Below, in pieces: positions 58,035 through 63,596 of a stretch of 64,000 nt of DNA. The DNA is from Merismopedia glauca CCAP 1448/3 (lineage in GTDB: Bacteria; Cyanobacteriota; Cyanobacteriia; Cyanobacteriales; CCAP-1448): NCBI RefSeq assembly GCF_003003775.1, contig NZ_PVWJ01000003.1, positions 1 through 64,000 on the forward strand, in the 5' to 3' direction. A program made the translations under genes and the position numbers. The notes under the pieces are model-generated. The model did not search any database, was not told the DNA's origin, and saw only the letters and a list, made by a program, of their open reading frames with translations. Each line of letters starts with the position of its first letter. Position 1 is the first letter of the stretch.

Positions 58035-59126
58035 CTACCAGCGATCGCGAATTTGTTCGACTAGTTCCATAATCTTTAAAGTTTCATCCAAAGGCATAAT
58101 TTCACTTTCTATTTTTCCTTGTTGGAGACAACGCATTACTTCTAATGCTTCATATTGATAACCATTACCTATAAATGGTTGGATTTTTTGTTGCGACGAT
58201 CTGCTAGTTAGGGGCGATAAATAACTGGCAAGATGTAGATATAAACTCTTTAGTAGGGAATTAGATTTGACTGATGCAACTAGTTTTTGCTTAGTGCTAG
58301 GAGTAGAGATTAAAGAGGGATTAAAAATGGGTAATTTAGTAGTAATAGATGCTCTTTCCGAGCAATAGAATGGTTCGTGAATTGTAATTTTGCCTTTAGT
58401 TCCAGCAATTAAAGCTTGATTACTAGTATAAGTGGTTAAGCTAGCCGAAAGTGTAGCCAATGCACCTTGAGGATAACTCAAAATTATAGCGACTTCTTCA
58501 TCAACCCCTGTTTTACCTCTACGAGCTTGGCTCATAATTTTAGCAGGTATTCCTAACAAATATACAGCCAAGTTTAGAGTGTAAATTCCCCGATCTAGTA
58601 ATGCTCCTCCACCTAATTCCGGGTTAAACAAATGACTACTCGGACTAAATTCGGTTGGTACTCCAAAGTCAGCCGATAATGTTCTAATCTCGCCAATAGT
58701 TCCACTATCAATTAGTTGCTTAATTTCCTGAATCAAAGGAATGAAGCGCATCCACATAGCTTCCATGCAAAATAATTGTTTTTGACGCGCTAAATTAATC
58801 ACCTCACTAGCTGCTTTAGCTGTAGTGGTAAATGGTTTTTCACACAGAATTGCTTTACCTGATTCCAGACATAAAACACAATCTGCTTCATGTCGATGGG
58901 GAGGTGTAGCAATATAAACTACGTCAATATCTGGATCTTTGACTAAATCTTCAGAGCTATTATATACTCGCTCTACTTGATATCTCTTGGCAAATTCTTG
59001 AGCTTTTGAAGCAGTTCGAGAGGTAATTGCTAATAGTTGAGCATCAGGAATCAAACGCAATCCTTCCGCAAACTGTTTGGCTACATATCCTGTACCGATA
59101 ATTCCCCAACGAATTTTATTTGACAT
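58035..59126 (-). CDS. Gfo/Idh/MocA oxidoreductase
   Basis: The 363-residue protein has a Rossmann N-terminus (IRWGIIGTGYVAKQFAEGL) and the family EKP motif in SGKAILCEKPFTTTAKAASE. The C-terminal alpha/beta domain has MWMRFIPLIQEIKQLID and GGGALLDRGIYTLNLAVYLL with the DRGIY active-site region. The sequence is closest to the dihydrodiol-dehydrogenase/glucose-fructose oxidoreductase subgroup. Relatives oxidise or reduce sugar derivatives using a tightly held NAD(P). The proximity to glycosyltransferases suggests sugar-nucleotide or glycan modification, but no substrate can be named. A C-terminal Ser/Thr-rich insertion is seen at about 250-310. Confidence 0.85.
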   Translation of the reverse strand: MSNKIRWGIIGTGYVAKQFAEGLRLIPDAQLLAITSRTASKAQEFAKRYQVERVYNSSEDLVKDPDIDVVYIATPPHRHEADCVLCLESGKAILCEKPFTTTAKAASEVINLARQKQLFCMEAMWMRFIPLIQEIKQLIDSGTIGEIRTLSADFGVPTEFSPSSHLFNPELGGGALLDRGIYTLNLAVYLLGIPAKIMSQARRGKTGVDEEVAIILSYPQGALATLSASLTTYTSNQALIAGTKGKITIHEPFYCSERASITTKLPIFNPSLISTPSTKQKLVASVKSNSLLKSLYLHLASYLSPLTSRSSQQKIQPFIGNGYQYEALEVMRCLQQGKIESEIMPLDETLKIMELVEQIRDRW

Positions 59127-59275
59127 ACTATCCTAAGTAATTTGAAGAATTGGGTAAACCACAGAGACACAAAGTTCACAAAGTTAGAGATTTAGCAGTT
59201 TAGAGTGTTCATTCTAGAGATGTTAATCGCTGAAAAGTATGAGCAGTAAACTTTTGACTTGCGTCTAGTGCTATA

Positions 59276-60397
59276 TTAGACCCAAGGCATGGAGTCTAAT
59301 GGTTCAAATGTAGAGGTTATTTTATAACTAGCACCTGTTTCTAAAGCATTATGAATTGCTAGAACAATTTCATTATTATGTAAAGAATATCTAGCTGATA
59401 GCTTACACGATCGCTTCTCGCGAACTGCACTAGCTAATTCAGCTACACCCCCAGCAAAATCTATTTGCTGTGAACCTCTATATTTAAATCTAGAACTATC
59501 ACCAACTAGAGGATACTTTTGTTTCCAGGGGTTGAGAAATGTTTTGCGACGAATGGTAATCTCGCGTTGAATATAGACGGGAGAATTTTCATACCAACAG
59601 TCTTTAGTAGAAAGAATTCCCTCATCCCCTATGATTCTTAAAGAGTGATCGTGGGGTGCAATAATACTACAAGTAATTCTCGCTACTACCCCAGAAGCAA
59701 ATTTAATACAAGCTACAGAAAAATCTGGCGATTCAATATCTAAAGGAACATCCGTTTCTTTATCGGGAATTTGACAAGAAGAAAAGGCGGTGACACTTTG
59801 AGCCGCGCCGAAATAAGCTACCAGCCAATTAACATAATAACCCGCGTGTTCTAAGGTACATCCTACTTCAAATTCATCTTTATAGGGCCAGGGAGTTCCT
59901 GATTCACTAAGCCATTTTTGATAAGGCATTTTATGAACCATACCATCATCTATTTCGGCGTAAACTAATCTGACTTTCCCAACTACATTTTCTTGTAAGG
60001 CTTTGCCAATAGTTTGAGCGGTTTTGCCAAGTATCGTGCATGGTGCTGAGGAAATATATAACCCTTTAGCTTCAGCTAAATCTACTAAGGCTTTTGCCTC
60101 TGAGATATCGGTAGCCAAAGGTTTTTCTGAATAGACGTGTTTTCCCGCTTCTAAACAAGCTTTGGAGACTTCAAAGTGACTTCTGGGATTAGTTAAATTG
60201 ACAACTATTTCGACACGAGGATCTGCTAGTAATTCGGCTAAAGAATTGTAGCAATGAAGGTTATAATAACTCGAAAAATGAGATGCTCTGGCGGCATTTT
60301 TATCCATCACTCCCGTTAATTCTAAATCGGGATGTTTGGGCAAGGTTTTCAAGTAATAGTCAGCTACAAAACCACAGCCAACGATCGCAATTCGCAT
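59276..60397 (-). CDS. Gfo/Idh/MocA oxidoreductase
   Basis: The 373-residue protein is a second member of the family, not closely similar to the one at 58035. The Rossmann region is RIAIVGCGFVADYYLKTL. The EKP motif lies in AGKHVYSEKPLATDISEAKA, and the C-terminal domain has GCTLEHAGYYVNWLVAYFGA with the His-containing active-site helix. I choose ATG 60397; a TTG one codon upstream is less likely. The two oxidoreductase genes point the same way with a 150-bp gap and may form an operon. They could make a modified sugar for the neighbouring glycan genes. Confidence 0.85.
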   Translation of the reverse strand: MRIAIVGCGFVADYYLKTLPKHPDLELTGVMDKNAARASHFSSYYNLHCYNSLAELLADPRVEIVVNLTNPRSHFEVSKACLEAGKHVYSEKPLATDISEAKALVDLAEAKGLYISSAPCTILGKTAQTIGKALQENVVGKVRLVYAEIDDGMVHKMPYQKWLSESGTPWPYKDEFEVGCTLEHAGYYVNWLVAYFGAAQSVTAFSSCQIPDKETDVPLDIESPDFSVACIKFASGVVARITCSIIAPHDHSLRIIGDEGILSTKDCWYENSPVYIQREITIRRKTFLNPWKQKYPLVGDSSRFKYRGSQQIDFAGGVAELASAVREKRSCKLSARYSLHNNEIVLAIHNALETGASYKITSTFEPLDSMPWV

Positions 60398-61092
60398 CAA
60401 ATTTGTCCTTTTTTCGATATTCGTAGAAGTACTAATCTTTCACTGCATCTACAAGCCATTACAGATTGAGGTGGCTTTGAGTTAACTTAAGTCGATCTGA
60501 AGTGGTTTAAACCTTGGAAAGGGGATTGACCTAATTTAATGCCAATTTATCCGAATTTCAACCCAATTAGAGCATAAATCTCAATTTGCTTTCTGTTCCA
60601 GTAGTTTGGTTATCGCTTAGCTTGCTGCACTCCATTCCGTTAGGCTAGCCATGACAAATACGATCTTTCAGGGCAATTTGAGATGAGTTGTCGGCGATCG
60701 CACCACCTGTATCAGATTCTGATAGGGAGTATCTGGCTACTGTTCATCCCATACTAGCTATCCCCTAGATTGTGTTTAAGAAGAAAAAATTAACTATGAC
60801 TGAGATGCGGAAAAATCGAAATAATATGGAAAGTATAGCAATTGCATCATAGATGAAAACGATCGTCAGGAGCCACCACCCTTGGGCCGAATTGTAACTG
60901 AGCTTTAGCATTAGTTAAAGCTCAACCACCAACCAACACCCATACAGACGTTCAATATAACGTCTCAACCACCAAGATTCTCAAGTAACTACGATTGTTT
61001 ACTTGCTCTGTGTCAAAAAGACTCACTCAAAATCCCAGGATCTATACTCTGCTTTGCTTTCGTGCTGGTAGTTGCTGTCTAGTGAACGCAAA
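60398..61092. other. Divergent spacer before the GAF kinase
   Basis: About 695 bp with no gene recognised. Two hairpins lie in the last 200 bp: TGAGCTTTA at 60899-60907 with its complement at 60916-60924, and AGACGTT-type arms at about 60950-60969. They are close to the kinase start and may belong to its leader RNA. Confidence 0.5.
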
Positions 61093-62979
61093 ATGTTAAA
61101 ACTTACACAGCTAATTCGGCAAACAACTTTGCCGCTTGCTACCTTTGAGTCTTTACGACAATTGTGGTATCAAATTTCTCAAGCCATTAGCGAAGAATGT
61201 TTCTTCATTACAGAAACTACATTATCCTCAACTACTGAATCATCCCTCAACTACTTTACAGTTGTAATTTCCGAAAAATTTAGTGCTTTACTCATCGGTA
61301 ATTGGGATCTAGACTCCGATCGCACTTCTGATGCCAAGATTCACCCTCCCCCAGACAGCATCACTTCTGAAACCTTACTGAGGGTAGAAATTAGTTTTGC
61401 TCCTGATGCGATCGCTAGTTTCTTGAACGATCTAGCTGGAATGATGCCACACAATGCCATCCTCATCGAACCAGCTAAGAGTAGATTACAACCCAATGAT
61501 GCTGGTTTACAGAGCCAGTTTACCGTAGCGTTAATCGAAATATTGACTAAAAGTAGTCATTTGACTTCATTTTCGCCAGATTTAGCCGTATGTCGTCCCA
61601 TTGAAGCCGCACTCCAGCAACAAATAGAGCAAGAAAGTTTATTAAATCAAGTCATCAGCCAAATTCGCCGAAGTCTAGAAGTACCAGTTATTTTAGAAAC
61701 TGCGGTGCAACAAGTACGTCAGTTGTTACAGACAGATCGGTTGGTAATTTTTGAGTTTGATTTACCCGAAAATTACCAAGAATTATCCCTTAAAGATCTA
61801 GAACGCAATTGCCAAGTTGGTAAGGTTACCTATGAGGCTAGATCGACAGAAAATATTACTTCTGTTGTATCTTGTGGGGAACCAGATCGATGTTTTATCC
61901 GCGCTCCTCATGTTTTGGCAAAATACCATCGAGGTGTGACTCAAGCAGTATCTAATGTGGAAACTGTATATGCTCTAACACCTTGTTTTTTAGACTGGAT
62001 GCGTCAAATTCAAGTTAAAGCTAAATTAGTTGCCCCAATTATAGTAGAAGAAAAACTTTGGGGATTATTAATTGCACATCAGTGCGATCGCCCCCGCGAG
62101 TGGAAACTCAGCGAACAACAGTTTTTGCTCCTAATTGCCGAACATTTGGCGGTGGCAATCCAACAAGCACAGCTATATACCCAGGTGCAACAGCAAGCTC
62201 AAACCTTGGAACAGCGCGTCATCGAACGCACTCAAGAACTGCAAGACGCTTTAGTTGTAGCAGAAGCTGCCAGTCGCGCCAAAGGTCAATTTTTAGCTAC
62301 CATGAGTCATGAGTTAAAAACACCTTTAACTTCTATTATCGGACTATCAGATACTTTATTACGCTGGTCTAGTGATGAACTTAAAGAAAAACAGCAACTT
62401 TATTTACAAATAATCCGCGATCGCGGACAACATTTACAAGAAATTATCGATGATATTCTCGATTTGTCAGACTTAGAAACCAAGGAATTAACCTTAAATA
62501 TTAGCGAAATTTCCTTGCAGCAAATTGCCAAACAAAGTCTGAAAATGGTGGAAAGAAATGCTACCAATAATGGAGTTGAATTAGCCTTAGAATTGCGAAT
62601 TTCACGAAAAAATGCCACTTTCAAGGCTGATTATCGAAGATTAACCCGAATTTTAGTTAATTTACTCAGTAATGGAATTAAGTTTACTCCTAAAGGTGGA
62701 AAAGTTACTTTGCGTATTTGGCTAGAAACAGATAAAAGTGTCTTTCAAGTCGAAGATACAGGGATTGGCATTCCTGAATCACAACAGCATTTATTATTTC
62801 AGAAGTTTCAACAATTAGATTCTGCTTATACACGCCAGTATCAAGGTATGGGTATGGGTTTAGCTTTAACTAAACAATTAGTCGAATTACATCAAGGCAA
62901 AATCGATTTGCGATCGACTGTAGGTGTAGGCTCCATTTTTACAGTTTCTTTACCGAGGTTGACAAATCATCAATTATAA
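61093..62979 (+). CDS. GAF-domain histidine kinase, possible cyanobacteriochrome
   Basis: The 628-residue soluble kinase has an N-terminal region of about 165 residues with no recognised fold and a GAF domain at about 180-370. HisKA follows (ATMSHELKTPLTSIIGLSDT), then HATPase (LLSNGIKFTPKGGKV, EDTGIGIPESQ, GMGMGLALTKQLVEL). The GAF domain has a DXCF motif (Asp265-Arg-Cys267-Phe268) and Cys298 spaced exactly as the chromophore-binding Cys of cyanobacteriochromes, but followed by Phe299 where they usually have His. It ends VKAKLVAPI and WGLLIAHQC, as in bilin-binding GAFs. Bilin binding is a hypothesis. ATG 61093 is preferred to a TTG at 61072. There is no receiver domain. Confidence 0.85.
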   Translation: MLKLTQLIRQTTLPLATFESLRQLWYQISQAISEECFFITETTLSSTTESSLNYFTVVISEKFSALLIGNWDLDSDRTSDAKIHPPPDSITSETLLRVEISFAPDAIASFLNDLAGMMPHNAILIEPAKSRLQPNDAGLQSQFTVALIEILTKSSHLTSFSPDLAVCRPIEAALQQQIEQESLLNQVISQIRRSLEVPVILETAVQQVRQLLQTDRLVIFEFDLPENYQELSLKDLERNCQVGKVTYEARSTENITSVVSCGEPDRCFIRAPHVLAKYHRGVTQAVSNVETVYALTPCFLDWMRQIQVKAKLVAPIIVEEKLWGLLIAHQCDRPREWKLSEQQFLLLIAEHLAVAIQQAQLYTQVQQQAQTLEQRVIERTQELQDALVVAEAASRAKGQFLATMSHELKTPLTSIIGLSDTLLRWSSDELKEKQQLYLQIIRDRGQHLQEIIDDILDLSDLETKELTLNISEISLQQIAKQSLKMVERNATNNGVELALELRISRKNATFKADYRRLTRILVNLLSNGIKFTPKGGKVTLRIWLETDKSVFQVEDTGIGIPESQQHLLFQKFQQLDSAYTRQYQGMGMGLALTKQLVELHQGKIDLRSTVGVGSIFTVSLPRLTNHQL

Positions 62980-62985
62980 ATTTCA

Positions 62986-63156
62986 ATGATTTCTCAAGAG
63001 AGGGTTTGGGAAAGGTTTGTGGAAGAGATTTTAGTTGACACCAGTGCCTATGACACTGAATATACCCTAATCTGCTTTAAGGAAAGCTCAAAACCTGGCA
63101 TTTGGTTGAATATAGCGGAAATTGAACCACGGTGTTTTAACTCAACAACGCTCTAA
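62986..63156 (+). CDS. 56-residue hypothetical protein downstream of the kinase
   Basis: A short frame starts 7 bp after the kinase stop codon. It reads MISQERVWERFVEEILVDTS, then AYDTEYTLICFKESSKPGIW and ends LNIAEIEPRCFNSTTL. The sequence looks protein-like, with no repeat content. I know no family for it. It may be the last gene of the kinase transcription unit, or a chance frame. No strong ribosome site is seen. Confidence 0.4.
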   Translation: MISQERVWERFVEEILVDTSAYDTEYTLICFKESSKPGIWLNIAEIEPRCFNSTTL

Positions 63157-63328
63157 GTAAAGTTTTATACCAAACCTGATTTTTATGCTGTACAACTAAT
63201 GCCAACAACGATTTTTCTTATAAAATGCAAGCAGGTTAATTTAAAAAAACTTGAACTTACCCTGTGAGTAATTTTTAGAGTGCTGGAAAAAGAATTAATA
63301 TTCCCTCCAACTATTAGGTAACTAATCG

Positions 63329-63589
63329 GTGTATACCTCCAAAGAAAGGCAAATCCATTACCAAGAACCAGTTGCAATTCCCACATTGATAGATCCAACT
63401 GTAATTAGGGCTGCACGGCAAATTTACCGCACATTTATCGAAATTTACCCCAATCGCAGCCAACAACCTACAGGGGTAGTAATTAATCGATTTACCTATA
63501 GAGGTAAACTGATATTTTCTGCCAAACCCATTCTCTTACCAGATGAATGTTTTGTACCTCTCAATCAAATAGAGATTGATACTCACTAA
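63329..63589 (+). CDS. Hypothetical 86-residue protein
   Basis: The frame from GTG 63329 encodes YTSKERQIHYQEPVAIPTL, then RAARQIYRTFIEIYPNRSQQ and TGVVINRFTYRGKLIFSAKP. It is soluble, with one central helix and C-terminal strands. No family is recognised. It is convergent with the partial gene at the right edge and only 7 bp separates the two stop codons, so both frames are unlikely to be accidental. The start is uncertain. Confidence 0.5.
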   Translation: MYTSKERQIHYQEPVAIPTLIDPTVIRAARQIYRTFIEIYPNRSQQPTGVVINRFTYRGKLIFSAKPILLPDECFVPLNQIEIDTH

Positions 63590-63596
63590 ACTCAGG

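Follow-up and report, generated by a model that had tools for sequence, protein, structure and literature searches.

Organization of the kinase gene

The window, by which we mean the whole stretch of 64,000 nucleotides analysed here, carries near its end a gene for a CikA-type sensor histidine kinase (Table 1). A Pfam search of its product identified GAF, HisKA and HATPase_c domains and found neither a pseudo-receiver (PsR) nor a receiver domain. An alternative TTG start at 61072 would give a reading frame of 635 aa (61072-62979); we counted residues from the ATG at 61093, which reproduces exactly the residue numbers of an earlier note on this DNA. The N-terminal domain was modeled with a pLDDT of 82, and neither a neighbor among PDB folds (best E 0.5) nor a Pfam family was found for it. 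Within its own genome, the only full-length match to the kinase is the kinase itself, and searching a plasmid collection with it returned generic kinase matches only. On the minus strand of the window, at 58035-60400, two adjoining genes resemble related oxidoreductases of the GFO/IDH/MocA type.

Table 1. Features of the kinase gene and of the KaiA gene encoded elsewhere in the genome.
Feature	Location	Strand	Remarks
cikA-type sensor kinase gene	61093..62979	+	628 aa from ATG
CikA-specific N-terminal domain, ~165 aa	61093..61590	+	no Pfam family, no PDB fold neighbor
GAF domain, cyanobacteriochrome-like	61687..62160	+	Pfam PF01590, aa 199-356
DXCF motif D265-R-C267-F268; C267 is the second Cys	61885..61896	+	
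C298-F299, canonical bilin-type Cys followed by Phe	61984..61989	+	
HisKA domain	62278..62481	+	PF00512, 1.8e-21
HATPase_c domain	62629..62958	+	PF02518, 8.3e-29
Region downstream of cikA, where longer orthologs carry the pseudo-receiver	62980..63590	.	no remnant in six frames
Single-domain KaiA, 138 aa, C-terminal domain only	L033:5398-5814 (G000:C19)	-	adjoins kaiB and kaiC

Assignment to the CikA lineage

Using the N-terminal region and the GAF domain as a query against 194 genomes of the phylum, we found relatives that align from the first residues onward. The ortholog set combined 80 loci of the named collection with further loci taken from the genomes. A profile of the two regions recovers 138 proteins, the window protein included, and the window kinase aligns end to end with the 137 relatives, one of which (L136) is close to the CikA of S. 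elongatus. Positions 1-368 of the CikA-lineage HMM A1 match the window protein over its N-terminal domain and GAF (6.5e-135), and the same HMM also covers L136, an S. elongatus-type CikA. The C-terminus of L136 is nearly identical over 116 residues to PDB 2j48, the solved PsR of S. elongatus CikA, while another long ortholog, L004, matches both 2j48 and 5jyu. Since the profile unites the window protein with L136 and L004, whose C-termini match the CikA PsR, the kinase belongs, by its sequence, to the lineage of CikA (circadian input kinase). Its N-terminal CikA domain is joined directly to the GAF domain and followed by HisKA and HATPase, the same order as in CikA of S. elongatus PCC 7942, seen through the close relative L136. 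This identity had been overlooked in the earlier note, as had the missing PsR described below, while its motif and cysteines were borne out.

A CikA without pseudo-receiver

Unlike canonical CikA, which ends in a PsR, the window protein stops after HATPase_c. A six-frame search downstream of the gene found no PsR remnant, and a search for the CikA PsR elsewhere in the genome yielded nothing convincing (best match, 28% identity). Because the reading frame ends after the HATPase with no PsR downstream or elsewhere, we class the protein within the CikA lineage as a PsR-less form and not as a canonical S. elongatus-type CikA. Just over half of the collected orthologs possess a C-terminal PsR. Its absence amounts to four changes on the CikA tree: a clade with full support, made up of Nostocales and Chroococcidiopsidaceae-type genomes, lacks it throughout, and so, as separate cases, do the window protein, L008/L054 and L028/L113.

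In S. elongatus, the PsR of CikA binds KaiB and quinone (PMC12632262); quinone acting on the PsR of KaiA advances the phase, while on that of CikA it delays the phase (PMC7766417). Docking on the KaiB-KaiC ring and quinone sensing of the S. elongatus type are unlikely for the window CikA, because the domain that S. elongatus CikA uses for both is absent.

Paired absence of the KaiA and CikA domains

The genome contains a kaiA-kaiB-kaiC cluster, and a second KaiB-like match, of SasA type, lies in a 399-aa frame. A profile of two-domain KaiA matches the KaiA of this genome at profile positions 152-288 and finds nothing credible upstream of it. With two-domain KaiAs the protein shares about 60-74% identity, and with the single-domain KaiAs of Nostocales about 47-58%. 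G194, which represents a different genus within the family of the window genome, encodes a 645-aa CikA frame without PsR and with both cysteines, together with a 137-aa KaiA frame. Single-domain KaiA has been placed only in Chroococcidiopsidales and Nostocales (PMC8113500).

We then tabulated KaiA and CikA in 58 genomes with intact genes. The CikA PsR is absent in all genomes with a single-domain KaiA (17/17) and present in 39 of the 41 with a two-domain KaiA, the exceptions being G062 and G185. A Fisher test on these 58 genomes ignores relatedness, and the effectively independent events number about two. The table omits the genome G125 because its cikA frame (L138) is broken, being only 463 aa long and ending shortly past the GAF domain; its close relatives are intact.

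When the comparison was widened to 245 genomes of the order, a few apparent exceptions emerged among the matches listed, and those followed up proved to be frameshifts or genomes that do carry the domain. The N-terminal domain of the G381 KaiA sits in a neighboring frame, as does the PsR of the G328 CikA in another frame; the G361 KaiA has at least part of its N-terminal domain, and the G272 CikA does have a PsR.

The PsR-less CikA proteins of Nostocales and Chroococcidiopsidaceae resemble the window protein in their N-terminal domain, kinase, missing PsR and accompanying single-domain KaiA, and nearly all have a dual-cysteine GAF. However, they form a clade separate from that of the window protein in the gene trees as well as in a tree of RpoB and partial RpoC1. 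In the latter, the family of the window genome stands apart with 98/95 support and one clade is rejected (AU p = 0.012), whereas a single origin of single-domain KaiA was not rejected on the KaiA gene tree (AU p 0.35), nor was a single clade of PsR loss with Nostocales on the CikA tree (p 0.089). Since the RpoB/RpoC1 tree rejects one clade, though the KaiA and CikA trees do not, this one marker set suggests independent co-loss of the PsR domains as the better reading.

Two conserved cysteines in the GAF domain

The motif and the canonical-type cysteine described in the earlier note read as it had claimed. The DXCF motif lies in E-P-D265-R266-C267-F268-I, with C267 encoded by TGT at 61891-61893 as the second cysteine. 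The other cysteine is found in T-P-C298-F299-L-D-W-M-R-Q-I-Q-V308-K-A-K and is encoded by TGT at 61984-61986. It precedes the V(K/R)A segment as a canonical cysteine does, lying ten residues ahead of VKAK; AnPixJ, to which the note had likened it, has the same interval (CHLEILEQFEIKAY in the 3w2z alignment).

At the aligned columns, 120 of the 134 distinct CikA GAFs have both cysteines, against an overall cysteine frequency of 1.3%; the pair is not due to chance. The distance between them is exactly 31 residues in 106 of these 120 dual-cysteine domains, and among aligned orthologs C267 is conserved at 0.91 and C298 at 0.93. The His of the AHQC motif, intact in the window protein, is present in 130/134. 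Other positions are more variable. The Asp of DXCF occurs in no more than 23 of the 120 domains, most of the others having E or K, and across this alignment is not a feature of the CikA family; the second cysteine is followed by Phe in 88 and by Leu in 21. After the canonical cysteine we counted Leu 96, Phe 17, Met 5, Trp 1, Tyr 1 and His 0. Because Leu, Phe and Met rule this site and His never occurs, Phe299 is by alignment a family trait, ordinary among CikA GAFs. The "unusual tuning" that had been read from a Phe at this site is thus not supported, all the more as the cyanobacteriochrome (CBCR) RcaE (8k9o) has Cys-Leu. A residue other than His after the canonical cysteine does not exclude a chromophore for the same reason. 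RcaE nevertheless differs from the window protein in being of the green/red type and in having no DXCF cysteine.

Some orthologs have lost one or both cysteines. The dual-cysteine state has undergone at least ten changes on the CikA tree, the bilin cysteine having been lost repeatedly, and L136 has neither. S. elongatus CikA, which has a PsR, has no bilin cysteine and binds no chromophore (PMC6378743), making it the reverse of the window protein with its two cysteines and no PsR. These losses agree with the idea that the GAF domain of the window protein no longer binds bilin either, its cysteines lingering by inertia. We regard this as quite improbable: the orthologs in question have lost the cysteines themselves, whereas the window protein keeps both, spaced by 31 residues, as well as the His of AHQC. 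The G194 protein of the same family also keeps both (EECF ... PCFLEL). Conservation of the pair over 134 sequences argues for continuing selection.

Fold and phylogeny of the GAF domain

In a phmmer search against PDB sequences, the only strong matches of the GAF region were CBCR and phytochrome GAFs. The AlphaFold model of the N-terminal domain and GAF (mean pLDDT 86.9) likewise found only CBCR and phytochrome GAFs as its best fold matches in the PDB, with a TM score of 0.86, target-normalised, to TePixJ (4glq). The model points to a CBCR GAF fold.

Could the two cysteines instead form a thiol or redox switch? S. elongatus CikA does report the redox (quinone) state (PMC7766417), and redox sensing by the GAF domain would replace the missing PsR. 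Yet the positions of C267 and C298 coincide with the bilin-attaching cysteines of solved CBCRs, and in L011, L056, L087 and L094 the second cysteine alone is replaced, as expected if the canonical one still functions by itself. We consider such a switch very unlikely.

We built a tree of the CikA GAFs with 14 other GAFs of the genome and five references, including TePixJ, AnPixJ, NpR6012g4 and RcaE. The CikA GAFs, that of the window protein included, form a single clade (SH-aLRT 99) apart from the other CBCR GAFs of the genome, from these four references and from the red/green group. The window GAF thus falls in the CikA clade and does not group with TePixJ. Because the CikA GAFs form a clade of their own, we call the domain a CikA-lineage CBCR with a DXCF motif and do not assign it to the TePixJ clade. 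TePixJ (4glq/3vv4), a DXCF CBCR, shares with it the DXCF cysteine, the canonical cysteine and the GAF fold but has a His after the canonical cysteine, and since its clade is separate, its colors cannot be transferred to CikA GAFs. At least 12 other CBCR-like GAF domains occur in the genome (L146-L155, L034), several with a clear DPCF ... CH of the TePixJ type.

The position of the CikA clade apart from TePixJ and the poor conservation of the DXCF Asp in CikA GAFs would fit a bound bilin to which C267 does not serve as a photolabile second ligand, with a single-cysteine photocycle at longer wavelength as the outcome. With C267 conserved nearly as well as C298, this seems unlikely, though worth keeping in mind.

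Probable bilin binding and proposed mechanism

SyCikA (Slr1969) of Synechocystis PCC 6803 is described, in the passages of PMC11372060 and PMC3546692 that cite Narikawa 2008, as a photoreceptor with a chromophore-binding GAF. We compared it with the window protein by description rather than by sequence, the likeness being the CikA lineage and the reported chromophore binding of the GAF. SyCikA is reportedly a violet/yellow photoreceptor and is said to carry a PsR, which the window protein does not have.

Between the cyanobacteriochrome and the chromophore-less relative that had both been offered for this domain, the former is better supported by the sequence and fold relatives in the PDB, the conservation of the cysteines and the example of SyCikA; the known chromophore-less CikA of S. 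elongatus and its relative L136 have lost both cysteines. Against bilin binding we counted the repeated loss of cysteines, the separate clade, the absent His after the canonical cysteine and the unconserved Asp of DXCF. On balance, a PsR-less CikA-lineage protein with a dual-cysteine, DXCF-motif CBCR GAF that probably binds bilin is the best reading, and one we hold with reasonable confidence.

DXCF CBCRs carry phycocyanobilin (PCB) on the canonical cysteine, and their second cysteine forms a second thioether, to C10, and aids isomerisation of PCB to phycoviolobilin (PVB) (PMC11284453; PMC5578081). In the window CikA, C298 most likely holds a PCB-derived chromophore covalently, while C267 would add reversibly to its C10 and may help conversion to PVB. 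A state presumably sensitive to violet or blue light would then photoconvert to one of longer wavelength, and this would alter how the adjoining histidine kinase acts. The likely role of the protein is that of a kinase/phosphatase under light control, with RpaA as a possible target and a conceivable effect on the clock. The genome encodes three ferredoxin-dependent bilin reductases (L157, G000:C16; L156, G000:C44), of which two are neighbors, a set that may provide phycoerythrobilin synthesis besides that of PCB.

Implications for clock input

The flagged motif is very probably the bilin pocket of an already known family, to which the window GAF would, judging from alignment, add a member. The more interesting point is the combination of a PsR-less CikA with a single-domain KaiA, which leads to a testable prediction about clock input by light versus quinone. 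We put forward tentatively, and with some doubt, that at least two separate cyanobacterial lineages lost the quinone-sensing PsRs at the N-terminus of KaiA and the C-terminus of CikA together and kept the bilin GAF of CikA, so that the clock would be reset by direct light perception through CikA (or CikA be uncoupled from Kai) and not by quinone redox.

The model of clock resetting was built on S. elongatus, in which CikA, itself blind, relies on its PsR and quinone. Our comparison suggests an atypical position for S. elongatus: the bilin cysteines are retained in most CikA proteins, and a large group, including the window genome, has neither of the two quinone-input PsRs. If the GAF domain is photoactive, clock input in such cyanobacteria may be true photoreception.
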